Positions 5,395-60,290 of a DNA stretch of 64,000 nucleotides are shown one piece after another; within the stretch, counting starts at the first letter, position 1; each line of letters opens with the position of its first letter. This DNA is from Thraustochytrium sp. TN22. Taxonomy: Eukaryota > Sar > Bigyra > Thraustochytrida > Thraustochytriidae. Both the position numbers and the translations under genes were made by a program. Location: positions 1-64,000 of the forward strand of contig JABLUY010000172.1 of assembly GCA_013306675.1 (NCBI GenBank). The letters are read 5' to 3'. Below the pieces are notes generated by a model. That model was given only the letters and a program-made list of their open reading frames with translations. It made no database searches and was not told where the DNA came from.

Positions 5395-5566
5395 CGCGGA
5401 TGCCAGCGCTCCGAGGGAGGACGAGAAGGCGGCGGGTGCGTCAGGGCGGACTGCGTAACATAGCCGAAGGAAGTAGAGATGCCAGAAAGGAGTGAATTTT
5501 TCTTTGTAGGCGAGCAGCGGAGGCGCTTCGACACGGCGGGGCTCCTGGACAAGATCGCCAAATAGT
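5395..5566 (+). repeat. Degenerate tandem copy of the glycosyltransferase 3' end
   Basis: About 5522-5566 would encode FDTAGLLDKIAK plus a TAG stop. It matches the gene's own terminal FDKAWLLSNIAKEYL (5336-5380) at both base and residue level. Upstream, GCGGCGGGTGCGTCAGGGCG near 5430 echoes CAACGGGTGCGTCGGAAGG near 5298. The copy is diverged and lies after the gene's stop, so it is a relic of a tandem 3'-end duplication. The rest of 5384-5691 is unremarkable convergent 3' flank with CTAGCTAGC at 5637-5645. Confidence 0.7.
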
Positions 5567-5691
5567 GAGAGTGAGTGCCCTCGTAGGTTCGAAGTAGTCG
5601 TAAAGCACATGATGGTATCTCTAAAACTATGGAAGGCTAGCTAGCGAGTAGGGTACGTGTCGATCAGATGCGACGGGCGCATCACATCATA

Positions 5692-6342
5692 TCAGCTCAT
5701 GCTAGGCGAGCGAATGGGCAGCGGAGGAGGAGGCGGCGGCAAGGGCGGCACCAATTCGTCCGGGCAAGGCAAATTCTTGAACTCGTCCCAGGAGAGGCCG
5801 GTCACGAGGGCGCTGCCCTCGGAGACGGCGCGCGAGGCCGGCATCTTCTTGCGTCGCAAGGGCGCAGCGCTGGTCTCGGCGGCGCTCTGCTCGGGCGAGA
5901 GCAGGCGCTCGCAGGAGTCGAGGCGCGCATGGAAAAGAGGGAGCGCAGTGCTGGAGTCGCGTGAGGCGCCGTCTGTGGCGAGCGTGGAGCAGCTGTCCGA
6001 GTGTTCCCTGAGCAGCTGCTCCAGCGGGCGGCGCTCCGAGGGGCGCCGCCGCTTGGTGAGGCTGGTGGTTCTCCGCAGCAGGCGGTGTGCGCGCGCGGCC
6101 GGCGACTTGCGGCCGGAGCTGGACGAGTTGGTGCGCTGCACGCCGGCCTCCTCGCCGTGCTGCGGCATGTCCCCTTGAGAGGGCGCGTGCTGCGGCGCCC
6201 TCACCATGGGGCCCTTGTGCAGCGGCGGCATGGCCTCGGTGCGCGCGCGCTGCAGCCGCCGCGGCCTCGGCGCCCTGGGCGACCCACCCTGGCTCGGGCC
6301 CTCGCTGCCGCCACGCATCTCCTTGCCCACCGCGCCGCCCAT
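5692..6342 (-). CDS. Ser/Arg/Pro-rich protein of unknown function
   Basis: I do not recognise this 216-residue product. It has an Arg-rich N-terminal half (GGSPRAPRPRRLQRART), a basic/Ser central block (TNSSSSGRKSPAARAHRLLRRTTSLTKRRR) that looks like clustered phosphosites with a nuclear signal, and an acidic/Ser segment. It ends in VTGLSWDEFKNLPCPDELVPPLPPPPPPLP, a proline run of the SH3/WW/profilin-ligand type. Third-position GC and the absence of stops support coding, and the C-terminal half looks more gene-like than the N-terminal half. The start is uncertain: the ATG at 6342 lies just inside the TCGAG repeats of the leader, and a Met nine codons on would also do. Convergent with the glycosyltransferase. 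Confidence 0.6.
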   Translation of the reverse strand: MGGAVGKEMRGGSEGPSQGGSPRAPRPRRLQRARTEAMPPLHKGPMVRAPQHAPSQGDMPQHGEEAGVQRTNSSSSGRKSPAARAHRLLRRTTSLTKRRRPSERRPLEQLLREHSDSCSTLATDGASRDSSTALPLFHARLDSCERLLSPEQSAAETSAAPLRRKKMPASRAVSEGSALVTGLSWDEFKNLPCPDELVPPLPPPPPPLPIRSPSMS

Positions 6343-6539
6343 TCTGCCTCCGGCCTCGACTCGAGTCGAGTCGAGTCGCTTCGCTCGCTCGCGAAAGAAA
6401 GGCGACGAGAGAAAGTATGAAGCTTGCTGCACCGCCTGTAATGACCCAGGAGGGCCACCCAGGCGCCGCTCCACCGCGCGGCCTCCGCGCGCGCGCGCGA
6501 GCGACACCGCGCGCCTCGCGGACGCGCGCGGGCGAGCCA

Positions 6540-13027: not shown

Positions 13028-14650
13028 ATGAGCGCGGTGGTGAAGCAGGGCGCGGAGGCGCGCGAGGAGGTGGTCAAGGTGGCCGCGCTGCGCGGCGCGG
13101 CGGAGAACGATATGGAGGTGGACGGCGCGCCGCAGCAGAGCGACGACGAGGTGAAGAACGGCGACGCGGAGAGCGACGTGCAGAGCTGGTGCACGGAGAC
13201 GCCCATGACGCCGGAGGAGGAGATGGCGGAGCTGGTGGCGCGCGCGCGCGTGGCGCAGCGCGTGGCCGAGACGTTCTCCCAGGAGAAGGTGGACCAGCTG
13301 ATCCGCGGCATGGTGTGGGCCGTCTCGCGCCCGGGCGTCGCGGAGGAGATCGCGCAGCTGTGCGTGACGGAGACGCGGCTGGGCAACTACGAGGGCAAGC
13401 TTGCCAAGATCGGCACCAAGACGCGCGCCGGCCTGCTGGACATCGTGGCCGAGCGGTCCGTGGGCGTGATCGAGGAGGACCCGGCGCGCGGCCTGGTCAA
13501 GATCGCCAAGCCCGTGGGCGTCGTGGGCGCCACCTCGCCCAGCACGAACCCGGAGGCCACACCTGTGCTCAAGGCCATCAACGCCGTCAAGGCGCGCAAC
13601 GCCATCGTCATTTCGCCGCACCCGCGCGCCGAGCGCACCAACGCGCTCATTGTAGAGAAGATGCGCGCGGCGCTGGAGCAGCTGGGCGCGCCGGCCGACC
13701 TCGTGCAGCACGTGGCGCAGCCCTCGCGCGCCAAGACCAAGGCGCTGCTCTCGCAGTGCGACCTGGTCTGGGCCACGGGCGGCAAGAACATCGCGCGCAA
13801 CGCGCTGTCCTCCGGCAAGCCCGCCTACGCCTCGGGCGTCGGCAACGCCGTCATCTACGTCGACTCCACGGCCGACCTGGCCTCCGCCGCCGTCTCCATC
13901 AGCCGCTCCAAGACTTTTGACCTGGCCGCCTCGTGCTCGGCCGACAACAGTCTGCTGGCGCAGGACGCCATCTACGACGACCTCGTGGCGCGCCTCGAGG
14001 CCAACGGCGGCCACCTGCTGCGCTCCGAGGCCGACCGCCTCGCGCTGCAGCGCACGCTCTTCAAGCCCAGCCCGTCCGGCAAGGGCGGCCCTGTGCTCAA
14101 CGCTGACGTCGTCGTGCAGCCGGCCCACGTCATCGCCGCGCGCGCCGGCATTGAGCTCCCGCCCGGCAAGACCTTCATCCTGGTCCCCGAATTTGGTGCC
14201 GGCGAGGCCTTCCCGTTCTCCGGCGAGAAGCTCTCCCCGGTCCTGGCGCTCTTTCGCGTTGCGTCCGTGGACGAGGCCGTGGCCAAGGTCAACGCCATTC
14301 AGGACTACCAGGGCCAAGGCCACTCCTGCGGCATCTACAGTTCCTGCCATGACACCATCATGGCCTTTAGTTCCGGCACGCGCACCGCGCGCGTCATGGT
14401 CAACCAGCCTCAGGCGCTCAGCAACTCCGGCTCGCTGTCCAACGGCATGCCCGTCACGCTCTCGCTCGGGTGCGGCACCTGGGGCGGCAGCACCTCCACT
14501 GCCAACATCAACTGGCGTGCGCTCGTCAACCTCACCTGGGTCTCCTCGCCCCTCCCGCAGCCCAAGGTCATCCCGGACGACGCCGCCCTCTTTGGCGATG
14601 TCCTCGCTATTCTTGGTGACGCCGACGTGCCCACCACCGCCTCCTCATGA
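13028..14650 (+). CDS. sauS: CoA-acylating aldehyde dehydrogenase, sulfoacetaldehyde dehydrogenase (SauS)-like
   Basis: The product is 540 residues of the ALDH superfamily, in the branch that includes EutE, the AdhE N-domain and SauS. SauS makes sulfoacetyl-CoA from sulfoacetaldehyde, CoA and NAD(P)+, a step in bacterial sulfonate (taurine/isethionate) breakdown. NAD-site segments are KPVGVVGATSPSTNPEATP (about 158-176) and NAIVISPHPRA. The catalytic Cys lies in FDLAASCSADNSLL, at about residue 303. The C-terminal LGCGTWGGSTSTANINWRAL (about 479-498), continuing VNLTWVSS, is the feature that points to SauS rather than AdhE. An acidic extension of about 55 residues precedes the domain and does not look like a transit peptide. 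Bacterial ancestry is plausible. The exact substrate is unproven; acetaldehyde or another short aldehyde is the main alternative. Confidence 0.8.
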   Translation: MSAVVKQGAEAREEVVKVAALRGAAENDMEVDGAPQQSDDEVKNGDAESDVQSWCTETPMTPEEEMAELVARARVAQRVAETFSQEKVDQLIRGMVWAVSRPGVAEEIAQLCVTETRLGNYEGKLAKIGTKTRAGLLDIVAERSVGVIEEDPARGLVKIAKPVGVVGATSPSTNPEATPVLKAINAVKARNAIVISPHPRAERTNALIVEKMRAALEQLGAPADLVQHVAQPSRAKTKALLSQCDLVWATGGKNIARNALSSGKPAYASGVGNAVIYVDSTADLASAAVSISRSKTFDLAASCSADNSLLAQDAIYDDLVARLEANGGHLLRSEADRLALQRTLFKPSPSGKGGPVLNADVVVQPAHVIAARAGIELPPGKTFILVPEFGAGEAFPFSGEKLSPVLALFRVASVDEAVAKVNAIQDYQGQGHSCGIYSSCHDTIMAFSSGTRTARVMVNQPQALSNSGSLSNGMPVTLSLGCGTWGGSTSTANINWRALVNLTWVSSPLPQPKVIPDDAALFGDVLAILGDADVPTTASS

Positions 14651-14777: not shown

Positions 14778-15006
14778 AGGCTGCCCGACGCCTGGTTCGA
14801 TCGCGCAAAAAAATGTATGTGTGTGCCAAGCAACTGCTGTGTGTTGATGCGACTACCTAAAAGCTAAGTTAGCCTAGTGATGAAGATGCAGGCTGCCCGA
14901 CGCCTGGCCCGATCGCGCAAAAAAATGTAAGTGTGTGCCAAGCAACTGCTGTGTGTTGATGCGACTACCTAAAAGCTAAGTTAGCCTAGGCTAGTGATGA
15001 AGATGA
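14778..15006. repeat. Tandem duplication of about 112 bp downstream of the ALDH
   Basis: Copy 1 (14778-14889) and copy 2 (14890-15006) share AGGCTGCCCGACGCCTGG, CGATCGCGCAAAAAAATGTA, CCAAGCAACTGCTGTGTGTTG and ACCTAAAAGCTAAGTTAGCC, with only a few substitutions and a short CTAGG insertion in copy 2. It lies about 130 bp after the ALDH stop, so it is probably 3' UTR or flank. Confidence 0.95.
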
Positions 15007-15366: not shown

Positions 15367-15441
15367 AAGCTTGCCATGAAAAGCATAAGCCTTCATCGTT
15401 TGTGATTTCAATGACATCTTGCTGGTCATGTTGACGCCGAC
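15367..15441 (-). repeat. Tail echo of the P450 gene
   Basis: This block matches 15462-15550, which spans the last codons and stop of the P450 gene. Shared words include AAAAGCATA, AAGCCTTCATC and ACATCTTGCTGGTCAT. Read on the minus strand the echo gives VGVNMTSKM against VKMTSKM at the true C-terminus. It is a tandem duplication of a gene 3' end lying beyond the stop. Confidence 0.8.
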
Positions 15442-15517
15442 TGCTTGGCGATGATCCCCCCTGCAAGCTCTGAAAAGCATACTCATGATAAAAAGCCTTC
15501 ATCCTTGGCAATTTCAA

Positions 15518-17191
15518 TTACATCTTGCTGGTCATCTTGACGCCGCCCGCACGCGGCGTGACGTGAAAATGCATCCCAGTGGGTACGTGGTACGGGCGGG
15601 CCCATCCGACATAGCCCTTCACAACGGGCGGCCGCGTGAGATCTTGCGGCGCGAGCGTGCCGTAGTTGACGCCTTGGTAGGCCTCGCGATCCGCGTCCAG
15701 GTACTCCTGCGTGAGGCGAAAGTCGTAGTTGTGCAGGAGATTCGCGAGGATGAGACGCATCTCCATGTGGGCAAAGTTCTTGCCAATGCAGTCGCGCGAG
15801 GGAAAGGTAAAGGGCGAGAAGCGCGAGGAGGCCGGATTGTAGGCGGCCAGACCCTGGTCGAACCAGAGCTCAGCGTCCTTGAACTCGCGATCCGGGTTGA
15901 ATTCCTCCACGTCGGGACCCCAGAGGTCAGGGTTGCGATGGCGGCTCCAGTTGACAATCTTCAGATGCGTCCCCTTGGGGAGGCGCACCTGGCGGCCGTC
16001 CGGCCCGGTGATGTAGTCGTCGAACTGCACCTGGCGAAAGGTGCCGTTGGGCACGGCGTTCCAGAGACGCAGCGTCTCCATGACGCAGCGCGTCATGAAC
16101 TTGAGCGACTTGAGGTCCTCGTACACGGGCTCGCGGCCGTCGAGACGCGCCCAAAACTCGTCCACCTCGGCCTGCAGGCGGCGCTGCACGTCTGGGTGCC
16201 GCGACAGCTCATACAGCAGCCAGGTCATGGTGTGGCCGGTCGTGTCGTGGCCCGCGAACTCGAAGATGAGCGCGTTGCCCTGGTTCGTCCTGTCGTCCGT
16301 CTGCAGATCGGCGAGGCGGTTGCTGAGCGGGCCGTGCACGTGCGGACACTTGCCGGCCGCCACGAGTTCGGGCGGCGCCGGGCACGTGCGCTCGGGCTGC
16401 GACCAGCGCTCCGAGACCTCTCGGCAGAACTCGCGCACGTAGCCCGCCGGGCCCTCGCCCGACATGGACGAGCGAAAGGCCTTGTTGGTGCGGTTCATGA
16501 AGTCCTCGTCCTCCCCGAAGAGCGCAAGCTGCAGCTGCGCCTGCGTCTCGTAAAGCGCAAACTCGTTCATGTCCACTGGCTGCGAGAAGTCGCGAGAGAC
16601 CTCGCGCAGGCGATCCACGCACGCGCGCGCACGCGCCGCGCTCACCGGCATGATGGCCGCAAGGCTGGCGTGCGGCATGAAGGCCGTCACCAGCGTCTCG
16701 CGCTGCTCGCGCCAGTGGTCGTTGTCCGTCGTCGAGATAATGGACCCGTACAGGCCCGTCGTGAAGTTCGGCTGCTTGCGCACGTGGAACCGCGCCAGCC
16801 GCGCCGCGTCGTCCGGGTTGCCCACGATCACCTGCACTGACCGCTGCGGCGTCGCCAGCGGGCCGTCGTCGCCCTCGCGCGAAAACAGCAGCTGCGGTGC
16901 CACAATGTTGGCCGCCAGGCCCTGCGCGCCGCCGTACTGTCGCTGCCACTTGGCGTACAGCACGTGCGACCGGCCCAGCTTATCCTGCGCGTTGAACTCC
17001 ATGAAGGCGTCCAGCCACGACCGTCCCTCGCGCAGCGGCCCGGCCAGCTCCTGCGCGATGTCAAATTCACCCGGACCCGGCAGGCGGCTCGGCACGTCCT
17101 GCCACGCCAGCGTCTTGCCAAACCAGTCAAACGCGCGGTCCTCCTCGCGCGGCACCTTCTTGCCCTCGGGCATCTCCGGCCTCGATGCCAT
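15518..17191 (-). CDS. Cytochrome P450 monooxygenase
   Basis: The product is 557 residues. Oxygen-binding I-helix FAGHDTTGHT lies at about 308-317, the K-helix ExxR in METLRLW at about 370, the FNPDREF region at about 415, and the heme-binding loop FTFPSRDCIGKNFAHMEMR with the thiolate Cys at about 466. The loop has Pro where most P450s have Gly (FxxGxRxCxG), a tolerated but uncommon variant. No strong N-terminal membrane anchor is seen from the ATG at 17191 (MASRPEMPEGKKVPREEDR...), unusual for a microsomal P450; the protein may be soluble, peripherally bound, or start elsewhere. The GHDTT class is shared by CYP4-like and plant CYP86-like fatty-acid or alkane hydroxylases; the substrate is unknown. 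Convergent with the ALDH gene. Confidence 0.9.
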   Translation of the reverse strand: MASRPEMPEGKKVPREEDRAFDWFGKTLAWQDVPSRLPGPGEFDIAQELAGPLREGRSWLDAFMEFNAQDKLGRSHVLYAKWQRQYGGAQGLAANIVAPQLLFSREGDDGPLATPQRSVQVIVGNPDDAARLARFHVRKQPNFTTGLYGSIISTTDNDHWREQRETLVTAFMPHASLAAIMPVSAARARACVDRLREVSRDFSQPVDMNEFALYETQAQLQLALFGEDEDFMNRTNKAFRSSMSGEGPAGYVREFCREVSERWSQPERTCPAPPELVAAGKCPHVHGPLSNRLADLQTDDRTNQGNALIFEFAGHDTTGHTMTWLLYELSRHPDVQRRLQAEVDEFWARLDGREPVYEDLKSLKFMTRCVMETLRLWNAVPNGTFRQVQFDDYITGPDGRQVRLPKGTHLKIVNWSRHRNPDLWGPDVEEFNPDREFKDAELWFDQGLAAYNPASSRFSPFTFPSRDCIGKNFAHMEMRLILANLLHNYDFRLTQEYLDADREAYQGVNYGTLAPQDLTRPPVVKGYVGWARPYHVPTGMHFHVTPRAGGVKMTSKM

Positions 17192-21445: not shown

Positions 21446-23500
21446 ATGAGGTCTGCACTCGCTCTGCAAGTCTTGGCCGTGTGCTGCGCGGCGCTTCTGA
21501 CGGCCGTGCACGCAGTCGTCGGTTCGGGCAAGTGCGTGGAGGGCTTTTACTACTCCAGCGGCTGGTGCGTGGGCGCTGCGGCGGAACACAACATCTTCTT
21601 TGGCAATCAGTTTCCTGAGAAGGAACATGCGGCAAACGCCTTTTGCTACAACAAGTTTCCGACCGGGCTCATCGAACCTGCGGTGGTCCGGACAGCGGAT
21701 CAGAAGAAGGCGTTGACCAACGCTCTGGCAAAGAATGATGTGGACGCCGCATACATCGGCTGGAAGCCCTACAATTACTATGGCGGCCAGGTGAGGAGGG
21801 TCAATGACCGGCTCACAGGCACGGTGCTTTCCTCTTCGGCTCTGGCCGATCGAATTGGGGATTTTTGGAGGGGCGCGCGGTGCGAAACCTTTTATGACTC
21901 CGATTACGGCGGCATGGCCAAGGACGACGCTGATCATGACTACTCCTCCTGGGAAAGCTACAGTTCTGAAGAGACGTACTATCACTCTAGACTTGGCTAC
22001 TACAGCAACTACTATGACAGCAACTACTATGGTAGCGACCGTCGCATGCTGCAGGATCAAGCCAACGAGACGAGCTCGGTGGCTCAAGACGCCGCACAAT
22101 CCAACGAGACAAGCACAGCGGCCAAGGTGAAGGCTGCCACGGAGATTCGTGACCTCCAGCGAAGCCCATGCAACTACCAGCTCCCGCTCCTCATTAAGCA
22201 GGACGGAGAGATGACCGTCGCGGACTGGCGCGAGTTCCAGGATCAGACCGTCTCGTCAATTGACGAATTTACCAAGCGCATGCGGCCCTTCTGCATGTAC
22301 GAGGTCGCCAACCGAGCCTCCAACGAGGACTGCGCAAACTTTCAAGCCGAGGGCTTTTGCAGATTCACGCACCCTGCCACGGGCAAGACCGGCTTCTCAG
22401 GGAGCTACAACATCCACTACGAGGTGAGCGAGTACTGGTGCTGGCAAAAGTGCGTCGTCACGGAGAAGCAGTGCCGCGCGTACGAGTTTTACGGCGACTC
22501 CGAGGAGAGCGGCACGTGCGAGATTCATTATCTGCCCGTGAGTGACGTCAAGGTGGGTGTCAAGAGGCCTGTGGCCCGCTGCGTGAGCGTCGAGCGGAGC
22601 CTCGCCTCCGTCTGCAACAACTACAAGCCCAAGCAGCCTACCCCTGCCCCGACGCGCCGACCCACCCGTGTCCCGACGCGAGCACCCACGCCGCTGCCTT
22701 CGCGCGCCCCGACCCAGGCTCCCGTCGGCACCTATGAGGCGGCGATGGAGGCAGAGTGCTACAAGACCGAGACCAAGTACTCTGGCAAGACGCTGGGCAG
22801 CACGCAGAACGCGGACGACCCCGCACAGTGCCAGGCACTCTGCGACACCACCGACAAGTGCCAGTACTGGGCCTGGCGCGCTTCCAAGAGCGAGTGCACC
22901 CTCCTCTCCAACCAGGGGTCCTCCAAATCCAACGATGACTTCACCTCCGGCTCGAGCTCGGATCTCTGCTCGCCCCGCATGCCGGAGACCTGCATCAGCG
23001 ACGGCGTCCTGTACACTGGCTCGTACGTGAGCAGGTCCACCAAGAAAATCGACGCAAAGGACGCCTGGAGCTGCCTTACCTTGTGCGAGGAGGAAAACAA
23101 GTGCGTGGCCTGGATCTTCGACCGCTCCGCCACCTCCTGCGCCCTACTCAAGAAGAAGAGCACCAAGGAGAAGACCGGCACCAAGTACGAGCGGTACACC
23201 TCTGGCCACTCGATTACAGCTTGCCCGACATCGGCGCCGACCATGGCGCCCATTCAGTCGCAGCCTGACTGCTTCGAGGATGACATCGAGCTGCGGCCCA
23301 CCAAGAAGCAGACCATTGACACCGTCAAGGACGTGTCTGACAGGATGATGTGTATGGCGCTCTGCCAGCAGGAGGCGGAGTGTATGTACTGGACCTACAG
23401 CGAGAAGGCAAACACGTGCAAGCGCATCTCCGGGGTTGCCGACATCAACCAGCGCCGCAATCGCAGGTACGTCTCTGGCTCGCGTTGCGACACGGAATGA
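21446..23500 (+). CDS. Secreted Cys-rich surface protein, paralogue B, with three extra PAN-like modules
   Basis: The product is 684 residues. Signal peptide about 1-26 (MRSALALQVLAVCCAALLTA). The N-terminal domain parallels paralogue A motif by motif (GKCVEGFYYSSGWCVG, KKALTNALAKNDVDAAYIGW, NDRLTGTVLS). It has a Tyr-rich linker (YYSNYYDSNYYGSD), two NETS N-glycosylation sites and the same central Apple-like module (YWCWQKCVVTEKQCRAYEFYG). A Pro/Thr linker (about 395-427) leads to three further Cys modules starting near 437 (CYKTETKYSG), 515 (CISDGVLYTG) and 608 (CFEDDIELRP), each with a CxxLC...C.xW core typical of PAN/Apple folds. It ends RRYVSGSRCDTE with no hydrophobic tail, so it is probably fully secreted. 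PAN modules usually bind protein or carbohydrate; the ligand is unknown. Confidence 0.9.
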   Translation: MRSALALQVLAVCCAALLTAVHAVVGSGKCVEGFYYSSGWCVGAAAEHNIFFGNQFPEKEHAANAFCYNKFPTGLIEPAVVRTADQKKALTNALAKNDVDAAYIGWKPYNYYGGQVRRVNDRLTGTVLSSSALADRIGDFWRGARCETFYDSDYGGMAKDDADHDYSSWESYSSEETYYHSRLGYYSNYYDSNYYGSDRRMLQDQANETSSVAQDAAQSNETSTAAKVKAATEIRDLQRSPCNYQLPLLIKQDGEMTVADWREFQDQTVSSIDEFTKRMRPFCMYEVANRASNEDCANFQAEGFCRFTHPATGKTGFSGSYNIHYEVSEYWCWQKCVVTEKQCRAYEFYGDSEESGTCEIHYLPVSDVKVGVKRPVARCVSVERSLASVCNNYKPKQPTPAPTRRPTRVPTRAPTPLPSRAPTQAPVGTYEAAMEAECYKTETKYSGKTLGSTQNADDPAQCQALCDTTDKCQYWAWRASKSECTLLSNQGSSKSNDDFTSGSSSDLCSPRMPETCISDGVLYTGSYVSRSTKKIDAKDAWSCLTLCEEENKCVAWIFDRSATSCALLKKKSTKEKTGTKYERYTSGHSITACPTSAPTMAPIQSQPDCFEDDIELRPTKKQTIDTVKDVSDRMMCMALCQQEAECMYWTYSEKANTCKRISGVADINQRRNRRYVSGSRCDTE

Positions 23501-23533: not shown

Positions 23534-23700
23534 GTTGGTGGATGAGCTTACAATCAATAACCATCGCTGCCGCGTGTCTTGTGCAAGCGAGTGCGCATGG
23601 CGCTTAAGTTTGTGAAGAATCTAAAATACGTTGGTGGATGAGCTTACAATCAATAACCATCGCTGCCGCGCGTTTCCTGCAAGCGAGTGCGCATGGCGCT
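23534..23700. repeat. Two 71-bp direct repeats beside the small heat-shock gene 1 stop
   Basis: GTTGGTGGATGAGCTTACAA and the following 50 bases occur at 23534-23604 and 23630-23700, period 96 bp, with about four differences. They fill the interval between the convergent ends of paralogue B and small heat-shock gene 1. The second copy ends five bases from the gene's stop. Confidence 0.95.
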
Positions 23701-24440: not shown

Positions 24441-25031
24441 CCCAGGCTGGCGCCCGCCAGCTGGCCGGCCACCGGTCCTGCGCTGCGAGCAAGGAACCGC
24501 GTCTCGAGCGCCCGTGCGCCTGGTCGGTCTTGCGATTCCTCGGATGGCTGTTGCCCCTGCAGAGGATCATTGTCTCGCTTGTTGTTGGTTGGTTCTGCCA
24601 GCCAGGCGTGTGTGTGTCACCGCCGCCGGGGCGCTGGCCCAGACTCGGATTCGGCTGGAAGCTTGGAACTTTTAGAACGACCGTGGGTCACTGTTGAAGT
24701 CGTGTGCGCGGCCCAGTGCCACTGGGCCTGACTCGGCCACGAAGCCCGGGCTGCCCGGGCTGCGAAGATGCCAGGTTCGCTATAGGAAATGTCAGCGTGG
24801 CGGCTTGGCCAGTGGCACGAAGAGCCACAATGCCTCCAAGCGGTTTCATACTACGAGCAAGACCCGCCGCTCCGAGTCTTCTTGAGAGGAACGGAGAAAG
24901 GGGAAGGAAAAAAGCGCAACGCAAGATGAGCCTGGCAAGACAACGGTGAATAGGTCTCTCCTTCAGGCCTACTTGCAACGTCATCATCATTCTTGGCTGG
25001 CATTCTCGGTTGGACCAGAGACACAGGCCAA
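24441..25031. other. Upstream flank of small heat-shock gene 1, no gene seen
   Basis: It contains a CCCGGGCTGCCCGGGCTGCG repeat near 24745 and an AT-richer stretch from 24830. A diverged copy of the CTTGCAACnTCATCATCATTCT word near 24972 is an older unit of the 201-bp array that follows. No coding frame is supported. Confidence 0.45.
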
Positions 25032-25436
25032 CTTGCAACATCATCATCATTCTCGGTTGGACCAGAGACAAATTCTTGTTTGTTTCAAGAGAGAATTACA
25101 TTGCCTACGAAGCTGCGGGTTGTCTCAAGCAGCAGACGTGGACGTCACGGTACGCTGCCATGTGTATCAAGCAGCGGGCGCGCGGTGAGCATGTGCACGT
25201 GATCAGTTGATCTGCACGCGGTGGACGAGGGGCTTGCAACATCATCATCATTCTCGGTTGGACCAGAGACAAATTCTTGTTTGTTTCAAGAGAGAATTAC
25301 ATTGCCTACGAAGCTGCGGGTTGTCTCAAGCAGCAGACGTGGACGTCACGGTACGCTGCCATGTGTATCAAGCAGCGGGCGCGCGGTGAGCATGTGCACG
25401 TGATCAGTTGATCTGCACGCGGTGGACGAGGGGCTT
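25032..25436 (-). repeat. Apparently perfect 201-bp tandem duplication including the end of small heat-shock gene 2
   Basis: Copy 1 (25032-25235) and copy 2 (25233-25436) look identical base for base with period 201. Copy 2 runs into the gene and includes its last ten codons (KPLVHRVQIN) and stop. Copy 1 therefore carries a detached duplicate of those codons at 25203-25235. Identity suggests a very recent event or ongoing homogenisation. Confidence 0.95.
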
Positions 25437-25982
25437 GACCTTGGGCAGCGTCACCTCGAGAACGCCGTCGGTGAAGCTGGCGCCAATGGCCTCCGGGTCG
25501 ACGTTGGCGTCGAACTGCACTCGGCGGACCCCGCGGGGCGCCGTGCGCTCGCGAACGAGAAAGGTGGAAGCCTTCTTGTGCACAGTCGGCGTGGAGTCCT
25601 TGGAGGAAGAGGCAGTGCTTGCACGACGTTCCGCGGCGTCCTCCTGCGCGGCAGTGGTTTCCGCCTCGCCCTTGGACTCGTCGGCCTTGGCCTCGTCCAC
25701 GGCGTCGCTCTGGGCGACACCATCTTCAGCGGCCGCGGTCGGCGCGCTCGCCTTGGAAGTGCCCTCGATCGAAATGCTCAGGATGCCCTTCTCGAAGGCG
25801 AGATCGACGGCATCCTTCTTGACGCCCGGCAGATCGCACGTCACCGTGTAGGCATCCTCGGTCTCCACCAGGTCGAGCGGGAAGGCAGCAACGGAGCGTT
25901 GCTTGGTCGTCGGGTGACCGCGCTGCAGCTGCTCCAGCGCCACGGCAAAAGGGTCGGCGGTGCTGCCGCGAAGGTAGATCAT
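25404..25982 (-). CDS. Small heat-shock protein 2 (HSP20) with a charged insert
   Basis: The product is 192 residues, a tandem paralogue of the gene at 23706-24263 in the same orientation. Both start MIYLR and end HRVQIN. The crystallin halves YTVTCDLPGVKKDAVDLAFEKGILSISIEG (about 46-75) and FLVRERTAPRGVRRVQFDANVDPEAIGASFTDGVLEVTLPK (about 140-180) flank an Asp/Glu/Ala/Ser insert whose sequence differs from paralogue 1 much more than the domain does. Chaperone role as for paralogue 1. The promoter block GGTCTCGGCCGCTCGTCGCG...CGCATCGCGAAGATC is shared with paralogue 1, so promoter and gene were duplicated together. Confidence 0.95.
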   Translation of the reverse strand: MIYLRGSTADPFAVALEQLQRGHPTTKQRSVAAFPLDLVETEDAYTVTCDLPGVKKDAVDLAFEKGILSISIEGTSKASAPTAAAEDGVAQSDAVDEAKADESKGEAETTAAQEDAAERRASTASSSKDSTPTVHKKASTFLVRERTAPRGVRRVQFDANVDPEAIGASFTDGVLEVTLPKVKPLVHRVQIN

Positions 25983-37536: not shown

Positions 37537-38922
37537 ATGGCGGGCTTCCGCGGGTTCGGCAGCTTCATGGTGGCGGAGAGCGTCGGCGAGATGCTGCAGC
37601 GCGCGTGCCGCGGCGAGGTGGTGGCGGCGCTCCCGTTCGCGGCCGCGAGCAAGACCGCGAGCAAGACCGCGAGCAAGACCGTGACGGCGACGCCCAAGAG
37701 GACGGGAGAGCAGCAGACGGCGGCTGTGGCCGCGAGCGACTTTGGGCTGGATCTAGATGGGTTCACCTTCGTGAACCATGGCGCCTTCGGCGCGGCGCTG
37801 CGCGTGGGCACGCAGCGCGCGCGAGAGTGGCGCGAGTATGCCGAGGGGCAGCCGCTGCGCTACTTCGACAGAGACCTCTTCCCCGGGCTCGTGGAGAGCG
37901 CGCGGCGGCTTGCAGGCTTCGTGGGCGCGCGGCCCGACCACCTCGCACTCACCAGCAACGCCACCGCCGGCCTGGACGCCGTCATGGCCAGCTGCGCCGC
38001 CGCGAGCCCGCTCAAGCGCGTCGTGATCTTCGACACCACGTATGGGAGCGTCAAGAAGATGGCTACGCGGCACTGGGCAGGGCGCGTGCAGGAGCTCCGT
38101 CTGCCGCTGCCGCTGCCGCTGGAGGATGAGACTGATCCTGTGCGCGCCCTCTGCGACGCCATCGAGGACCAGCTCGGCGAGGCAACTGGCGCCGACGTTG
38201 GGCTCGCGGTTGTCGATCATGTCACTTCCAACACCGCACTGCGACTGCCGGTGGAGGCTCTCTGCGACCTGTTCGCGGCGCGCGGCATCCCGATGTTGGT
38301 CGACGGCGCGCACGGGCCCTGGGCCACCGATTTGAATTTGGCTGCGCTCCCGCACTGTGACTACTACGTCGGCAACTGCCACAAGTGGCTCTGCGCGCCC
38401 AAGTCCGTCGGATTTCTCTACGCGCGTGACCCCATTCTCGCGCGCGACGCTGCCCCGCTGCGCCCACGCATCACCTCGCACGGAGACGAGGCTGCCTTCC
38501 CCGACTCGTTCTACTGGGACGGCTGCCGCGATTACGCGGCGGCGCTCGCGCTGCCGGCTGTGCTCGATGTCTGGGACGGCGGCCAGGCCGCGCAGGCCCG
38601 CGCGCAGGCCGTGGATCTCGTCCACCGTGCCGGCGCCATGCTCGAGGACCGCTGGGCCACAGCGCACCTGCGCCTCGCGCCGCGCGGCAGCTCGCTCTTG
38701 GACGTGCCCATGACGCTGGTTGGCCTGCCCGTGGAGGGCGGCGCCACCTCCGCGGACGCGCACGGGCTTCAGGAGGCGCTCTACCACGAGCACCGCGTGG
38801 AGTGCCCGGTCAAGCTCATCCACGGCCGCCTCTACTTGCGCATCTCCGCGCATGTGTACAACGAGCTCGCCCACTACGAGGCGCTCGCGCGCGCCGTGGA
38901 CGCCTGCCTCGGCCGTGCCTGA
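37537..38922 (+). CDS. PLP-dependent class V aminotransferase (isopenicillin N epimerase-like)
   Basis: The product is 461 residues, the usual length of the isopenicillin N epimerase/cysteine desulfurase-like group. The N-terminal fold segment FTFVNHGAFGA (about 75-85) is the family's substrate-side loop. ALTSNATAGLDAVM contacts the cofactor phosphate, and LVDGAHGPW supplies the Asp that binds the PLP ring nitrogen. The Schiff-base lysine is in YYVGNCHKWLCAPKSVGFLY, at about residue 284. The first 70 residues include an in-frame triplicated SKTASKTASKT encoded by a 12-bp repeat and look disordered. The substrate is unknown; amino-acid racemisation or desulfuration are the precedents. No antibiotic-pathway neighbours are present, so the epimerase name should be read only as a fold label. 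The 3' end is partly duplicated downstream. Confidence 0.85.
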   Translation: MAGFRGFGSFMVAESVGEMLQRACRGEVVAALPFAAASKTASKTASKTVTATPKRTGEQQTAAVAASDFGLDLDGFTFVNHGAFGAALRVGTQRAREWREYAEGQPLRYFDRDLFPGLVESARRLAGFVGARPDHLALTSNATAGLDAVMASCAAASPLKRVVIFDTTYGSVKKMATRHWAGRVQELRLPLPLPLEDETDPVRALCDAIEDQLGEATGADVGLAVVDHVTSNTALRLPVEALCDLFAARGIPMLVDGAHGPWATDLNLAALPHCDYYVGNCHKWLCAPKSVGFLYARDPILARDAAPLRPRITSHGDEAAFPDSFYWDGCRDYAAALALPAVLDVWDGGQAAQARAQAVDLVHRAGAMLEDRWATAHLRLAPRGSSLLDVPMTLVGLPVEGGATSADAHGLQEALYHEHRVECPVKLIHGRLYLRISAHVYNELAHYEALARAVDACLGRA

Positions 38923-38979
38923 TCGGCCACGTCCAAGTCATCAAGAGCTTCTTGCCCGTGGACGTTGATGGCTTCAAGT

Positions 38980-39140
38980 TGCCACGTCCGTGGACGCGCG
39001 CGCCGCGCTTCAGGAGGCACACTCTTCCGCGAGCACCGCGTCGCATGCTCGGTCAAGCTCATCCATGGCCGTCTGTACCTATGCATCTCCGCGCATGTCC
39101 TTCGCGTCGTGGACACCTGCCTCGGCCGTGTCTGATCACG
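38980..39140 (+). repeat. Tail echo of the aminotransferase gene
   Basis: This degenerate copy of about 38738-38928 includes CGCGCTTCAGGAGG, GAGCACCGCGT, GGTCAAGCTCATCCA, GCATCTCCGCGCATGT, and GACACCTGCCTCGGCCGTGTCTGATC against the gene's GACGCCTGCCTCGGCCGTGCCTGATC. An internal deletion is visible where the gene encodes VYNELAHYEALARA. The copy lies wholly after the gene's stop. Confidence 0.9.
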
Positions 39141-49046: not shown

Positions 49047-50459
49047 ATGGGGTGCTCACAGTCGGCGGAGGACGACGCGAGGCCGCTGAGCACGCGCGTG
49101 CTGGTGGCGCGCAGCATGACCAGGCACGAGCTGGCGCACGCGGCGGCGTGGCGAGAGCTGCTGGCGAACTTGGAGGCGCTCGAGGGCGAGCGGGTGCGCA
49201 GGAGAGGCAAGGAAACGCAGTCGGAGCGGCTCGTGAACCATGCGAGGCGCATGCGCGGCCAGGAGCGCGCCGCCGCGGAGCTGGCCAATGTGGCGCGCGA
49301 CTTTCGGCGGCTCAGCAAAAGGTGCGCGGGATGCACCGCGACGCCGGACATGCACCGCTGCAGCGAGCTCGTGCTGCAGCTCGGGCTCGAGCTCGGGCCG
49401 CTGCACGAGACGGGCGCCGACATGCTCGCGCTCGTGGCGCTGTACTGCGAGCTTGTGCGCAACGCCAGCTCGCCCGAACTTGGCAAGCTGGCGCTCGAGT
49501 ACCTGGAGGACGCGCTGCGCCTCGCGCTGCGCGCGCGCGCGGACGGACGCAGCGTGCAGGAGCTCTTTGTGGGGCCACCCTCCGAAGAGGTCTTTTGTCT
49601 CTTCCTCGTCGGCGAAAGCGGCGACAAGGAGCTGCTCGCGCCGCTCAAGACCATTCTGCGCGAGCAGCTCGACCTCGTGCGCGACTTTCGCTCGACGTTC
49701 TACCGCTTCGACGACGGCCTTTCCTTTAGTGTGCGCACCATGAGCGTCTCCAGCGGCGAGAGCTGCGTGGATCAGCAGGAGCCGCTCATGTCGCACGGGC
49801 TGCGCGCATTTTTGTCCATTCCGGTCCACGAGCTCTTTTTGTTTTTGGTCGCGGACCTCTCCCAGGAGGACCGCGCGCAGTTTTCTGACGGCGTCCTGGT
49901 CCAGGCCACCGGCACGGCCACCTGTAACGCACTCTTCACGCTGGTCGCCGACGAGCTCGCGCGCGCCAAGACGCCACCGCTGCGCTTCGTCGCTGACGGC
50001 GGCGTCTACCACTGGGTGCGCCTCCCGCCCTCAGAGCCCTTTGGCGTTCAGGCGCCTGACCCGCAGTGCATCGTGCGCGGCGCCGAATTCCCGGATGTCA
50101 TCCCGCCGCTCGCCCTGGCCAACAGCCTGCTCCCGGCCGCCGCGCGCGGCGCTCTCGGCTGCGACGGCGACCAAGAGCTCACCGTACGCCCGCTGCTCAT
50201 CGACTCCTCCAAGAAGTCCGCCTCCACCTTTTCTTATGAGATGGCCCGACTCAAGGAGACCAAGGGCGCCGTGCGCGTCTCCGCCAAGGTCCTCGGCCGC
50301 CTGGGCGCCGACCAGCTGCACCGCCTCACGGACCGCATGCATTCCGTCTCCACCATTGAGCGCATGCGCGCCGTCTCCTACCTCATGAGCAGACGCAAGC
50401 TTTCTTTTGACGGACAGGAACTCAACGAATGGCGAAGGGAGCTCAACCACGCGCTATGA
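49047..50459 (+). CDS. Dual-acylated (MGCSQS) protein of unknown function
   Basis: The product is 470 residues, not recognised. The start MGCSQSAEDD fits N-myristoylation (Gly2, Ser6) plus palmitoylation (Cys3), predicting plasma or flagellar membrane attachment. A charged coiled-coil-like region (about 30-85) precedes a mostly helical body with CAGCTATPDMHRCSELVLQL, KLALEYLEDALRLALR and LLAPLKTILREQLDLVRDF. A mixed region (about 230-400, FLSIPVHELFLFLVADLSQEDRA) follows, and the protein ends in a Lys/Arg helix. Codon use is typical of neighbouring genes. An in-frame ATG at 48738 would add 103 residues of Ala/Arg-rich then acidic sequence; the MGC start is preferred for its acylation signal. 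No enzymatic motif is visible. Confidence 0.8.
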   Translation: MGCSQSAEDDARPLSTRVLVARSMTRHELAHAAAWRELLANLEALEGERVRRRGKETQSERLVNHARRMRGQERAAAELANVARDFRRLSKRCAGCTATPDMHRCSELVLQLGLELGPLHETGADMLALVALYCELVRNASSPELGKLALEYLEDALRLALRARADGRSVQELFVGPPSEEVFCLFLVGESGDKELLAPLKTILREQLDLVRDFRSTFYRFDDGLSFSVRTMSVSSGESCVDQQEPLMSHGLRAFLSIPVHELFLFLVADLSQEDRAQFSDGVLVQATGTATCNALFTLVADELARAKTPPLRFVADGGVYHWVRLPPSEPFGVQAPDPQCIVRGAEFPDVIPPLALANSLLPAAARGALGCDGDQELTVRPLLIDSSKKSASTFSYEMARLKETKGAVRVSAKVLGRLGADQLHRLTDRMHSVSTIERMRAVSYLMSRRKLSFDGQELNEWRRELNHAL

Positions 50460-51241
50460 TGAGGACTTTGCTTGAACATTAGTGATCTATACCGCCGCAG
50501 ACACCTTGACGTTCCTTGCGTTAGAAGCAGAGTCGCCAGCTTGAAACCGGGCTTCCCGTGCGGCAGAACGACGATGAGGGCGGACTCTAGCTCGACGAGG
50601 TAGCAGCCAGGTCGCGTGAAACACCAGCATTTACACGAGACAGCCTGTGTCACGAAACGTTAGGGGACACACAAGCCGCATCGCGGAGGAGTTTCTGCAT
50701 TGGCGCACTGCATGCGCGGGGAACTGGTGTGTCTGAGCTCGCGGCTTTCCTGCTTGGCCGCGCACTAAGCTAGTTTGCTGGCATGGGCCCGACTGACATG
50801 TGAGCATTGTGAGGACGACTCGGAGGAGAGAGGACTCGAACTTGAAGGGCGCGACGTGGCTGAACGACCGCCGCGGCGAGCTCGCTATCAGCAGTCGGCG
50901 GGCAGTCGTTGGTTCGTACTCTAGCTAGCTAGCTAGTTCCTGGGCCTGATTGACATGTATGGACGACTCGGAGGAGAGAGAACTCGAACTTGAAGGGCGC
51001 GACGTGGCTGAACGACCGCCGCGGCGAGCTCGCTATCAGCAGTCGGCGGGCAGTCGTTGGTTCGTACTAGCTCCTGGGCCTGATTGACATGTATGGACGA
51101 CTCGGAGGAGAGAGAACTCGAACTTGAAGGGCGCGACGTGGCTGAACGACCGCCGCGGCGAGCTCGCGCGCTCGGAGCAGTTAGCCAGCAGGCAGGAGGG
51201 CAGGCAGGCAAGGCGAACGCGCGCGCGGGCGCAGCGGCGCG
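50460..51241. promoter_or_regulatory. Upstream region of the WD40 gene with a three-fold repeat
   Basis: The first 350 bp are ordinary flank. From about 50813 the promoter or leader is tandemly repeated (listed separately), ending about 70 bp before the WD40 ATG in GCAGGCAGGC simple repeats. A CTAG run is at 50921-50936. Confidence 0.55.
50813..51172. repeat. Three tandem copies of a unit of about 130 bp upstream of the WD40 gene
   Basis: GGACGACTCGGAGGAGAGAG and about 60 following bases (GGGCGCGACGTGGCTGAACG...) occur from 50816, 50954 and 51093. Copies 1 and 2 also share TATCAGCAGTCGGCGGGCAG and TCGTTGGTTCGTACT; copies 2 and 3 share CCTGGGCCTGATTGACATGT. Identity is near perfect. The third copy abuts the leader. 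Confidence 0.95.
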
Positions 51242-53275
51242 ATGGCGGGCATGGCGGGGTGGGAGGAGGGCCCGGACGGAGCGCTGTGGCAGCGGCGCGA
51301 GGCGCTCGCGGAGACGCTGGATGACTTCGGCGGGGTGCAGCGCGCCATCCATGGGGAGGACGCGGTGGCGCGGCGCGCGAGCATCTGCGCGCTGCTGCGC
51401 GAGAGCGCGGAGCTGGACATGGACGCGCGCACGGCGACGACGCGGCTGCTGAGCCAGGCCATGCACGCGCTGAGCTGGGACCCGATGGAACTCGCGTCGC
51501 AGGTGCTGGCGCGCATGACGGGCGAGGAGGATACCGCGCTCGTGCGGACCCTACGCGAGCCGGGGGAGTCCTCGGCGTGGCTACGCCCGGTCAAGCGCAG
51601 CCTGCCACACCCGCGCGGCGCGCTCGTGCACGTGTTGCAGGGCCACGGCACCATGGTGACGAGTGTGGCCATGGACGGCCGCCGCGTGGTGTCTGGGTCC
51701 AAGGATGGCGCGGTGCGCGTCTGGGACCTGCACACGGGCGAGCTCCTGCACGAGCTGCGCAAGCAGGGTGCGCGAGTGTGCAGCGTGGCCATTGAGGACT
51801 CGCGCGTCGCGTCGGGCTCCATGGACAGCGCCGTGCACGTGTGGACGCTGCCCTCAGGCGAGGAGCGCGTCCTCCGCGGGCACACGGACTGGGTGCGGGG
51901 CGTGGCGCTGGCGGGCGACCGCGTCATCTCCGGCTCCGCAGACACCACCGTGCGCGTGTGGGATGCGCGCACGGGCGAGGAGGTCCGTACGCTGGAGGGC
52001 CACACGGGTACGGTGTGGAGCGTCGCGACACATGGCCACCGCGTGGTGTCGGGTTCGGATGACGCGACGGTGCGCGTTTGGGACGCCGACACGGGCGCCC
52101 AGCTCTTCGTGCTCGAGGGCCACGGCGCCACGGTCAACAGCGTGGCGACAGACGGCAATCTCGTGGCGTCCGGGTCCATGGACGAGACCGTGCGCGTGTG
52201 GGACCTGGACACGGGCGAGGAGCTCTATATGCTGGATGACCACGGCGGCCCAGTCGGGAGCGTCGCCCTGGACGGCGACACCTTGGTGACCGGGGCCAGG
52301 GACGCGATTGTGCGCGTGCGGGACTCGCGTACCGGCGAGCTGCTGCGCGCGTTGAGCGGCCACGCAGGCTGGGTGAACGGCGTGGCAGCCTGCGGCGAGC
52401 GCCTCGTCTCGTGCTCCTCGGACACGAGTGTCCGGGTGTGGGACCTGTCGGCGTCCAAGGAGCCGCACGCGCTCGCGAGCCACGCGTCCAGGGTAACAGG
52501 CGTCGCCGTGCAGGGCAACCGCATGGTGTCGGTGTCCACCGACATGGCGGCGCGTGTGTGGGACCTGCAGACGGGCGACCTGCTGCGCGTGCTCAAGGGC
52601 CACACCGGGCCGATCTGGTGCGTGGCGCTGCAGGACGACTGGATCGCGACCGGGTCCTCCGACACGACCGTGCGAGTGTGGAGCGCGGCCACGGGCGAGC
52701 TCAAGCACGTGCTCGAGGGCCACACCGAGGAGGTCTACGGCGTGGCGATTAGCGACGGCCTGGTTGCCTCTGGCGCCAACGACCTCTCGGTGCGCATCTG
52801 GGACCTAAAGACGGGCGAGCAGCTGCGCTTGATCGAGGGTCACATCGACTGGCTCATGGGCGTGCTTCTGGTTGGCGACCGCCTCATCACGGGTTCCTTC
52901 GACAAGTCGGTCCGCGTGTGGGACGTGCACTCCGGCGCGGAGCTGCACAAGGAAGATGTTCCGTTCAGGGTCAGTAAGCTGCGCCTCGACGGCGACATCT
53001 TGACGGCGTACGGCAAGCTCTACGCGGAGAAGGCCTGCAAGCGCTTCGTCTTCCAGCCATCGCAGTCTCCGCCGCTGGCCGCCACGGAGCTGCCCGGCCC
53101 GCTCTGCGTGGACGACGCGACCGAGACCCACCTTTCTCTGCAAGGCGGCTGCGTTGGCTTCTCTACGGACCACGCCATCACTGCCTGGGCCTCGGCTGGC
53201 GATGCCGTCGGCCTCGGCGACGAGAGCGGCATGGTCCACATTTTGCGGAGGGTTCCCTTCTCGCCGCCGCAGTAG
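51242..53275 (+). CDS. WD40-repeat protein resembling the C-terminal half of a bacterial STAND (NACHT/NB-ARC-WD40) protein
   Basis: The product is 677 residues. The N-terminal 110 residues carry LLSQAMHALSWDPMELASQVLARM and WLRPVKRSLPHPRGALVHVLQGHG. That block, helices then WLRPL..SL..PGG.L..TL.GH, is the linker between the nucleotide-binding and WD40 parts of bacterial NACHT/NB-ARC-WD40 proteins. About twelve WD repeats follow (about 125-585) with a near-uniform consensus (GHTxxVxSVAxDGxxVVSGSxDxTVRVWDxxTGE), implying two propellers or one large one. The C-terminal 90 residues are less regular. No NTPase domain is present: the frame starts only about 95 residues before the linker. Highly similar repeats indicate recent homogenisation. 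Function unknown, probably ligand recognition or scaffolding. Bacterial origin is inferred. Confidence 0.85.
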   Translation: MAGMAGWEEGPDGALWQRREALAETLDDFGGVQRAIHGEDAVARRASICALLRESAELDMDARTATTRLLSQAMHALSWDPMELASQVLARMTGEEDTALVRTLREPGESSAWLRPVKRSLPHPRGALVHVLQGHGTMVTSVAMDGRRVVSGSKDGAVRVWDLHTGELLHELRKQGARVCSVAIEDSRVASGSMDSAVHVWTLPSGEERVLRGHTDWVRGVALAGDRVISGSADTTVRVWDARTGEEVRTLEGHTGTVWSVATHGHRVVSGSDDATVRVWDADTGAQLFVLEGHGATVNSVATDGNLVASGSMDETVRVWDLDTGEELYMLDDHGGPVGSVALDGDTLVTGARDAIVRVRDSRTGELLRALSGHAGWVNGVAACGERLVSCSSDTSVRVWDLSASKEPHALASHASRVTGVAVQGNRMVSVSTDMAARVWDLQTGDLLRVLKGHTGPIWCVALQDDWIATGSSDTTVRVWSAATGELKHVLEGHTEEVYGVAISDGLVASGANDLSVRIWDLKTGEQLRLIEGHIDWLMGVLLVGDRLITGSFDKSVRVWDVHSGAELHKEDVPFRVSKLRLDGDILTAYGKLYAEKACKRFVFQPSQSPPLAATELPGPLCVDDATETHLSLQGGCVGFSTDHAITAWASAGDAVGLGDESGMVHILRRVPFSPPQ

Positions 53276-58690: not shown

Positions 58691-59926
58691 ATGGGTTGCG
58701 TGCAGGCCAAGGAGGCGCCGGCGGAGGAGCTGGTGGCCGCGGAGGACGTGGAGGTGGAAGAGCAGGAGGCCGCCGAGGAGGAGCAGGCCGAGGCCGTGGG
58801 CAAGTACGATGAGTACCTGGCCCGCGCCGCGGAGGTGCGCGAGGAGAACCCGGACAACCTGTGCGCGCGGTACCTGACGCCGGAGCTGTTCTACTCGTAC
58901 ACGCCGGAGCAGCAGGACACGCTGTACCAGATCACGCGCACCGGTATCGAGAACCCGAGCTCCGGCACGGGCTGCTACGCCATGAAGCCGGATGACTACC
59001 AGACCTTTGCCAAGTTCTTCGATCAGGTGATCCGCGACTACCACAAGCCCAAGACGAAGAACCCGGTGCACGTCACGGACTGGGACGCCAGCGAGGTGGG
59101 CGACCACGGTGTGCTCGACGTCTCGGAGCTCGGCCTCGACGAGCTGTCCATGCGCGTGCGCGTCGGCCGCAACCTGACCAGCTTTAACCTCCCGGGCCTC
59201 ATGGACCGCGAGGAGCGCATCGCCTTTGAGAAGGTCATGCTCCCGGCCTTCGAGAAGCTCATGTCCATGCCCGAGTACGGCGGCCGCGTCTACTCGCTCA
59301 CGCCCGAGTTCGGCCCGGGCGAGCCCAACCCCAACCTCATCTCGGACGCCGAGTACAACAAGCTCGTCGCCGACCACATCATGTTCAAGGACATGGACGC
59401 CGACCCGTACCTCAAGAGCGCCGGCATCAGCTCCGACTGGCCCTACGGCCGTGGCTGCTACGTCTCGGACGACCGCCAGTTCATCATCTGGTTCGGCGAG
59501 GAGGACCACCTGCGCATCATGTGCATGAAGAAGGGCACCAAGCTGAACGAGGTCTTCGATCGCCTCCGCGAGGCCCTCGACGTGGTCGAGTCTCTCCCGG
59601 GCATTGAGTTCGCCACCTCCAAGAAGTACGGCTTCGTCACCTCGTGCCCGACCAACCTTGGCACGGGCATGCGCGCCTCCGTGCACATTAAGATCCCGAA
59701 CCTCACCGCCGACGGCACTGACACCAAGGCCAAGGCCGTTGCCAAGCCCCTCGGCCTCTCCGTGCGCGGCACCGGCGGTGAGCACACCCCCATCGGCAAG
59801 GACGGCACCGTCGATATCTCCCCCTCCGCCCGTCTCTTCATCAAGGAGAAGGAGATCATTGCTGCTCTCTACAAGGGCATCGGCCTCCTCATGGAGGAGG
59901 AGCACGCCGCCGCCGCTGAGGCCTAA
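58691..59926 (+). CDS. Phosphagen (guanidino) kinase with N-myristoylation signal
   Basis: The product is 411 residues. Phosphagen kinases reversibly move phosphate between ATP and a guanidino compound (arginine, taurocyamine or creatine) and buffer ATP. The signature CPTNLGTGMRASVHI with reactive Cys is at about 318. WFGEEDHLRIM carries the catalytic Glu, and SMRVRVGRNLTSF, KYGFVTS and RGTGGEHTP are ATP-site segments. The guanidino-specificity loop is SSGTGCYAMKPDDYQTF, which by eye does not settle the substrate; stramenopile relatives include taurocyamine and arginine kinases. N-terminal MGCVQAKE is a myristoylation signal with a palmitoylatable Cys, followed by a 40-residue acidic extension, so membrane attachment is predicted. 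The flagellar creatine kinase of sea-urchin sperm is a known myristoylated precedent. Confidence 0.93.
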   Translation: MGCVQAKEAPAEELVAAEDVEVEEQEAAEEEQAEAVGKYDEYLARAAEVREENPDNLCARYLTPELFYSYTPEQQDTLYQITRTGIENPSSGTGCYAMKPDDYQTFAKFFDQVIRDYHKPKTKNPVHVTDWDASEVGDHGVLDVSELGLDELSMRVRVGRNLTSFNLPGLMDREERIAFEKVMLPAFEKLMSMPEYGGRVYSLTPEFGPGEPNPNLISDAEYNKLVADHIMFKDMDADPYLKSAGISSDWPYGRGCYVSDDRQFIIWFGEEDHLRIMCMKKGTKLNEVFDRLREALDVVESLPGIEFATSKKYGFVTSCPTNLGTGMRASVHIKIPNLTADGTDTKAKAVAKPLGLSVRGTGGEHTPIGKDGTVDISPSARLFIKEKEIIAALYKGIGLLMEEEHAAAAEA

Positions 59927-60045
59927 GTGCCCTGTGTGTTTACTGCGCTCCTGCGTCGTTCCTCGGTTCAAGAGCAAGCGAGCATCAGTTGCTCCAACGC
60001 CTTGCTGTGGACATCGTGACCAGGCGCCTGCTGTGTGCTGTCTTG

Positions 60046-60290
60046 ACCAAAAACGAGATTCACTTTTTATGCGGATACGAATACGCCTTGCGGGGCCTTG
60101 CTTTGTGCGCTTGACCCAAAACGAGACTCATCTTTTCTACCGCCATGACCAAAAACGAGATTCACTTTTTATGCGGATACGAATACGCCTTGCGGGGCCT
60201 TGCTTTGTGCGCGCACAATTGTGCGCTTGACTCACTTTTCTACCGCCAATACGAATACGCCTTGCGTGGCCTCGCTCTGTGTGCGCAACA
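60046..60290. repeat. Three tandem copies of a unit of about 100 bp or less downstream of the phosphagen kinase
   Basis: TGACCAAAAACGAGATTCAC, then TTTTTATGCGGATACGAATACGCCTTGCGGGGCC, occurs from 60046 and again from 60145, near identical. A shorter third copy (60245-60290: CAATACGAATACGCCTTGCGTGGCC) follows. Each ends near GCTTTGTGCGC or CTCTGTGTGCGC. It starts about 120 bp after the kinase stop. Confidence 0.95.

Follow-up and report, generated by a model that had tools for sequence, protein, structure and literature searches.

The first 64,000 nucleotides of contig JABLUY010000172.1 of Thraustochytrium sp. TN22 (C80:1-64000, hereafter the window) carry short direct repeats at or behind the 3′ ends of several genes. 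Are transcript ends a target of tandem duplication, or are they simply where duplications are most often seen? The original prediction named seven of these "tail echoes" and suggested a mechanism that targets transcript ends. All seven repeats were found by self-alignment, and the 3′ bias was borne out in 323.5 kb of the genome and repeated outside the window, where 10 repeat clusters lie in 3′ flanks and none in 5′ flanks. The bias is real and replicates, but targeting is not needed for most of it, since random placement matched for composition and coding overlap already accounts for 11.2 of the 18 clusters within 300 bp of a stop, and no peak is seen there. The echoes are probably ordinary short, locus-private tandem duplications from error-prone DNA processes, which are seen mainly where they are harmless and are aided by AT-rich gene tails.

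The analysed sample was taken from one genome (assembly of 37.9 Mb in 453 contigs) and comprised the whole contig C80, 210 kb of C453 and 10 kb each of C1, C200 and C300; the part outside the window is called held-out. Genes were called by a self-trained open reading frame (ORF) model with 19 Pfam-matched window ORFs as seed. It predicted 103 genes in the sample, 22 in the window and 81 held-out, and all gene ends are model predictions, not mapped ends. The GC content of the window is 61–73% in 4-kb steps, and its proteins are of eukaryotic kind. Direct repeats were searched at offsets of 25–1200 bp with low-complexity and short-period sequence excluded, and repeats with at least 75% identity and an offset of at most 500 bp were retained. 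This gave 30 repeat clusters. Two of them are wholly inside coding sequence (CDS), and two of the other 28 are tRNA-gene clusters, which were removed to leave a small set of 26 and are included only in the 28-cluster distance test. Noncoding positions were classed as 3′ flank (300 bp after stops), 5′ flank (before starts) or deep (further intergenic DNA).

A self-alignment scored by distance to stops and starts against random placement, which had been proposed together with the original prediction, was run on the 323.5 kb. The 26 noncoding clusters comprised 17 in 3′ flanks, one before starts and eight in deep DNA; extrapolated to the 37.9 Mb, this would amount to about 3,000 clusters. The cluster density per 10 kb was 8.0 in 3′ flanks, 0.95 in deep DNA, 0.36 in 5′ flanks and 0.10 in CDS, which is nearly devoid of duplications (two in 191 kb). 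The window contributed seven clusters in 3′ flanks, one in a 5′ flank and none in deep DNA, and the held-out sample contributed 10 in 16.6 kb of 3′ flank, none in 21.5 kb of 5′ flank and eight in 68.8 kb of deep DNA (tRNA clusters removed). In the distance test with the tRNA clusters included, 19 of the 28 clusters were less than 200 bp from a stop versus 6.8 expected (0 of 2000 random placements), and 2 of the 28 were less than 200 bp from a start versus 8.3 expected. Counted by gene, a duplication lies over the stop or within 300 bp after it in 22/103 genes (14/81 held-out), and over the start or within 300 bp before it in 1/103 (0/81 held-out); a duplication in a convergent gap was scored for both genes in these counts, and one cluster mostly beyond 300 bp was included. 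The window (8/22 genes) is richer in 3′ duplications than the rest.

The pattern stays when the cuts for identity, length, offset and gene score are made stricter. With stronger gene calls required, 14 clusters are in 3′ flanks, one in 5′ flanks, 11 in deep DNA and two in CDS. One 3′ cluster, C300:9545-9632, hangs on a weak gene call of 57 amino acids. Among the ten held-out genes beside echoes, of which two are given only in part, six have a Pfam match and four were called by the codon model alone. The clusters containing hits of at least 90% identity (n = 11) fall mainly in 3′ flanks (seven, against one in a 5′ flank and three in deep DNA), indicating that the bias is already present in young events. 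Weak matches of 65–75% identity do not follow the 3′ pattern (one in 3′ flanks, three in 5′ flanks, five in deep DNA and four in CDS), and several of them look compositional in our judgement.

The coverage of noncoding bases after stops is 14.7, 14.6 and 12.8% within 0–300 bp, 8.6% at 301–500 bp, 0 at 501–1000 bp and 7.8% beyond 1 kb, where the 906 covered bases belong mainly to a single 737-bp cluster. Before starts the coverage is 0.2–1.2% up to 500 bp, then 3.2 and 5.2%. In the same six bins, the held-out coverage is 11.0, 9.1, 8.4, 5.1, 0 and 10.6% after stops and 0, 0, 0, 0.3, 3.9 and 5.5% before starts. The profile is a plateau past stops and a gap ahead of starts; at large distances from genes, some long repeats occur. 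Over 0–300 bp it is approximately flat and peaks neither at the stop nor at any set distance beyond it.

Chance repeats in GC-rich sequence were rejected as the source of the clusters. Local shuffles over all 323.5 kb, one each of two kinds, gave no hits of at least 75% identity at offsets up to 500 bp (5 and 17 weaker hits), compared with the 30 real clusters. Implanted 80-bp duplications were recovered at 47–49 of 50 3′ sites, 40–44 of 50 5′ sites, 42–44 of 50 starts and 43–45 of 50 deep sites. For 50-bp units, the recovery was 42/50 in 3′ flanks, 32/50 in deep DNA, 26/50 in 5′ flanks and 23/50 at starts, and 120-bp units with 18% divergence were found at 36/50 starts versus 47/50 stops. The detection bias is at most about twofold and cannot yield 17 to 1, which excludes failure to detect duplications near starts as the cause. 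The idea that overlooked genes occupy the deep zone was likewise rejected, as only 9–11% of it is coding-like. Dispersed repeats gave just 7 hits, too few for use as a control.

The seven window echoes are listed in the table together with the only 5′-flank duplication of the window, a counter-example that also starts 348 bp past a stop at 50459.

Table. Direct repeats in the window (positions in the 64,000-nucleotide stretch). GT, glycosyltransferase; ALDH, aldehyde dehydrogenase; sHSP, small heat-shock protein.
Gene or interval	Position of repeat	Strand	Description
GT (Glyco_tranf_2_4), CDS 4145-5383	CDS-end segment 5336-5375 and echo 5527-5566	+	40 bp, 82% identity (span 5336..5566)
ALDH, CDS 13028-14650	14778..14989	+	flank duplication, unit 112 bp, 97% over 100 bp, 127-339 bp beyond stop
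P450, CDS 15518-17173	CDS end and stop position 15493-15550 and echo 15387-15444	-	58 bp, 86%
Gap between sHSP1 and PAN-domain gene	23534..23700		spaced duplication of 71 bp, 94%, spacer 25 bp; stops at 23500 (+, PAN) and 23706 (-, sHSP1)
sHSP2, CDS 25404-25982	24964..25437	-	exact 201-bp tandem duplication across stop (25032-25437) and outer 37-bp repeat, 89%
Aminotransferase, CDS 37537-38922	38743..39137	+	CDS end and stop copied at 38981-39137
Phosphagen kinase, CDS 58691-59926	60019..60299	+	flank, two to three degenerate copies, 78-88%
Upstream of WD40 gene (starts at 51251, +)	50808..51167		sole 5′-flank duplication, 148-bp offset, 92%, 84-443 bp upstream of the gene

Four of the echoes had been claimed to include the stop codon. 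In residue alignments only three of the seven (P450, sHSP2 and aminotransferase) carry the stop position, and the stop is kept in two of these and lost in the third, the P450 echo, which has TCA versus TAA in the gene. The GT echo is the weakest of the seven; its aligned segment ends 8 bp before the CDS stop, so the TAG in the echo was not copied from the stop of the gene. The repeat ascribed to sHSP1 is present, but the two genes around it are convergent, with 205 bp separating their stops; the repeat comes to within 33 bp of one stop and 5 bp of the other, which makes its assignment to either gene impossible. The sHSP2 pair has an offset of 201 bp and is 100% identical over 205 bp including the stop, with 4 identical bases running on beyond the second copy. 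The aminotransferase echo also includes the stop and consists of 118 bp at 81% and 35 bp at 91% identity, with about 30 bp deleted internally from the echo.

The predicted spread of ages was found as well, the 3′-flank copies being 77–100% identical. Offsets in the 3′ set are about 36–240 bp, and the copies are direct repeats adjoining or near their source. Most duplications have two copies, and the tail at C453:73794-73954 has several. Several duplications have spacers of 11–48 bp; at GT and C453:72039 the spacer is about 150 bp. Divergence prevents junction reading in most copies. Among eight pure tandems, the number of identical bases continuing beyond the second copy is 0–2 in the six other than sHSP2 and C453:73794; at the latter 7 bases continue, but it is a multi-copy array and therefore uninformative on the junction. 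In eight aligned pairs of CDS-derived copies, the differences at codon positions 1, 2 and 3 are 10/98, 14/98 and 18/99, which is about the spread of an untranslated, decaying copy.

A general source of duplications combined with unequal tolerance would fit this distribution. Duplications may arise by fill-in or joining of staggered breaks, by polymerase-theta end joining or by slippage; the pure tandems, the tandems with spacers and the apparently short or absent terminal homology look like known break-repair products. A copy laid across a stop would be harmless because of the tandem geometry: the first copy stays joined to the gene with frame and stop intact, and the second copy would become an untranslated tail and decay. 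A copy of similar size across a start would leave the gene preceded by an additional ATG and by interrupting sequence and would be removed, and a copy within the CDS would disrupt the gene and be removed by selection. Selection should consequently pass 3′ duplications and purge the others, as the pattern suggests. Gene tails, which are the AT-richest (57% GC versus 70% before starts), may in addition raise the rate or the survival of duplications. The repeats themselves, the privacy of the window echoes, the 3′ bias, the scarcity before starts and in CDS, the decay at all codon positions and the composition effect are observed; how the copies arose and whether selection sorted them is inferred.

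Base composition has a strong effect on the distribution. The GC content is 0.566 in 3′ flanks, 0.663 in deep DNA and 0.705 in 5′ flanks, and none of the 251 noncoding 150-bp tiles above 70% GC carries a duplication. For tiles below 70% GC, duplications are present in 13/86 in 3′ flanks, 1/71 in 5′ flanks and 23/374 in deep DNA, where long repeats occupy several tiles. Random positions were then matched for both GC and CDS overlap, with the tRNA clusters removed; 11.2 clusters are then expected within 300 bp of a stop, compared with 6.6 without this matching. Duplications covering the stop are in excess without GC matching (9 versus 4.0, p = 0.0008) and not significantly above the matched expectation (9 versus 6.8, p = 0.06; held-out 5 versus 3.5, p = 0.09), which gives no clear indication of targeting at the stop itself. 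Composition accounts for much of the bias at stops as well as at starts, and a 1.6–1.8-fold 3′ excess remains (p ≤ 0.003).

Several of these observations weigh against harmlessness as a sufficient account. The excess near stops survives matching, with 18 clusters observed against the expectation of 11.2 (p = 0.0004) and 11 against 6.1 in the held-out sample (p = 0.003). The 3′ flanks exceed deep DNA by a ratio of 8.4 (held-out 5.2, p = 0.0007), that is, the deep density is about one eighth of the 3′ density. Since deep DNA is poor in duplications yet only 9–11% of it is coding-like, a pure tolerance filter must assume constraint there too; the low deep density may reflect such constraint, a disfavouring composition or a higher rate in tails. 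On the start side, the deficit within 300 bp is borderline once matched (2 versus 5.5, p = 0.04; held-out 1 versus 3.9, p = 0.06), as is the lack of start-covering duplications (0 versus 1.9, p = 0.05; held-out 0 versus 1.0, p = 0.19). Composition may therefore do much of what is ascribed to selection, and after matching the start side is weak evidence for selection. The DNA before starts is also not shut to all repeats, because simple repeats are commonest there. Unlike the tandem duplications, simple sequence repeats of at least 15 bp number 14.4 per 10 kb before starts, 9.0 after stops, 4.2 in deep DNA and 2.7 in CDS.

The strongest competitor is a mutational hotspot at gene 3′ ends, in which events at termination or poly(A) sites (R-loops, topoisomerase nicks, polymerase pausing) would cause staggered breaks whose fill-in duplicates 40–250 bp of the tail. 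This is unlikely, although it keeps a real share of the probability. The 3′ density of 5–8 times that in deep DNA, the bias among young events and the excess left after matching would all be expected from it, and selection may also cause that excess. Also on its side, near inverted repeats, examined as a control, show no such 3′ excess (1/16 in 3′ flanks). Against it, the profile has no maximum at the stop or at any set distance, and the scarcity in CDS needs a separate explanation. Convergent and tandem gene tails are equally affected (13/60 versus 9/42), which argues against an effect of head-on transcription, and convergent-transcription collisions were rejected as the cause on these counts. 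Echo-bearing genes do not differ from the others in coding score (p = 0.74) or in GC3 (p = 0.94), a weak proxy of expression. The nulls for tail orientation and codon usage lend no help to a transcription-linked source, which may contribute all the same. It is comparably doubtful, and a shade more so, that termination-linked breaks keep duplicating 40–250 bp of tail, by which tails would grow step by step and hold spare coding ends from which new C-termini could form once a stop is lost.

Composition alone, with duplication or the retention of copies being easier in low-GC DNA and tails simply being low in GC, is a clearly improbable explanation. It accords with the GC gradient, with the empty tiles above 70% GC and with the effect of matching on both the stop expectation and the start deficit. 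However, the stop excess survives matching in the whole and in the held-out sample, and tiles below 70% GC still differ between 3′ flanks, 5′ flanks and deep DNA. An assembly artefact, in which read errors or the merging of haplotypes created false tandem copies, is very improbable: it could account for the identical sHSP2 pair, but most pairs differ at 3–24% of sites or by indels, and avoidance of coding sequence is not expected from it.

Dispersed or mobile elements, or reverse-transcribed transcript ends inserted behind genes, are hardly credible, as nothing beyond the location behind genes speaks for them, no copies of the window echoes were found at unrelated loci by the privacy searches, and the aligned copies lack a long poly(A) tract (the surrounding DNA was not systematically checked). 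A search of the 37.9 Mb, in which simple repeats are skipped and scoring is limited to the best candidates, gave for each of the seven window echo regions no match other than itself or its own parent. The one held-out echo region tested gave 23 other matches, all short partial stretches, 19 of them in the second-copy part with a GA-rich run. A dispersed 490-bp repeat at C453:89333-89822 (L014:9333-9822) gave 51 matches, seven of them near full-length at 85–100% including the query, so the search is able to detect dispersed families. The gap around this repeat yielded no coding-like segment. An Rfam scan gave no matches in the window, and 12 of the 26 genome stretches, when scanned, gave 6 matches, all tRNA.

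Other repeats in the sample include three tRNA-Val(cac) genes within less than 800 bp at C453:76134-76922 (L013:6134-6922), two direct and one inverted. Three further tRNA genes of 95–99 bp (L010:901-995, L010:1248-1344 and L012:1447-1545) are about 89–95% identical and probably intron-bearing; they were found by Rfam and missed by ARAGORN. At C453:62355-63091 and 64828-65563 (L012), two pairs of repeats, diverged to 75% and 70%, have an offset of 282 bp, and part of their sequence looks coding on the minus strand. A 315-bp-offset repeat, 80% identical, lies at the start of contig C1 (L003:1-927); at a contig end, it is possibly subtelomeric.

If filtering is all that acts, harmless duplications at gene tails make it possible to count how short duplications are sorted among the parts of a gene by selection and composition, and they warn against taking a position bias for a mechanism. 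If the residual 3′ excess were mutational, transcript ends would be a steady source of tandem duplications in a eukaryote and a route to new protein tails. Among the entries listed by keyword searches of an open-licence literature library, none described a 3′-end bias of short tandem duplications, which is weak evidence of absence.

Minisatellites and other tandem repeat arrays consist of head-to-tail copies. C453:73794-73954 is likewise multi-copy, whereas most duplications here have two copies. Vaughn and Bennetzen reportedly described, in 2014, natural tandem-duplication insertions in rice as products of patch-mediated break repair; going by the title of that work, both cases are natural tandem duplications in a eukaryotic genome. 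Small tandem duplications from staggered-break fill-in or end joining have been obtained with Cas9 nickases at chosen sites in mouse cells, according to the available portions of two papers (PMC5730883, PMC8355091). As far as those portions go, the products are alike in repeating adjacent sequence in direct orientation, where short terminal homology or filler between the copies may be present or absent, but the duplications described here are old products only, are biased to gene tails and have several longer units. The tandem duplications of Drosophila yakuba, as set out in the available part of PMC5460883, are similar in including whole or partial genes, whereas the units here hardly exceed the last codons of a gene and its flank.

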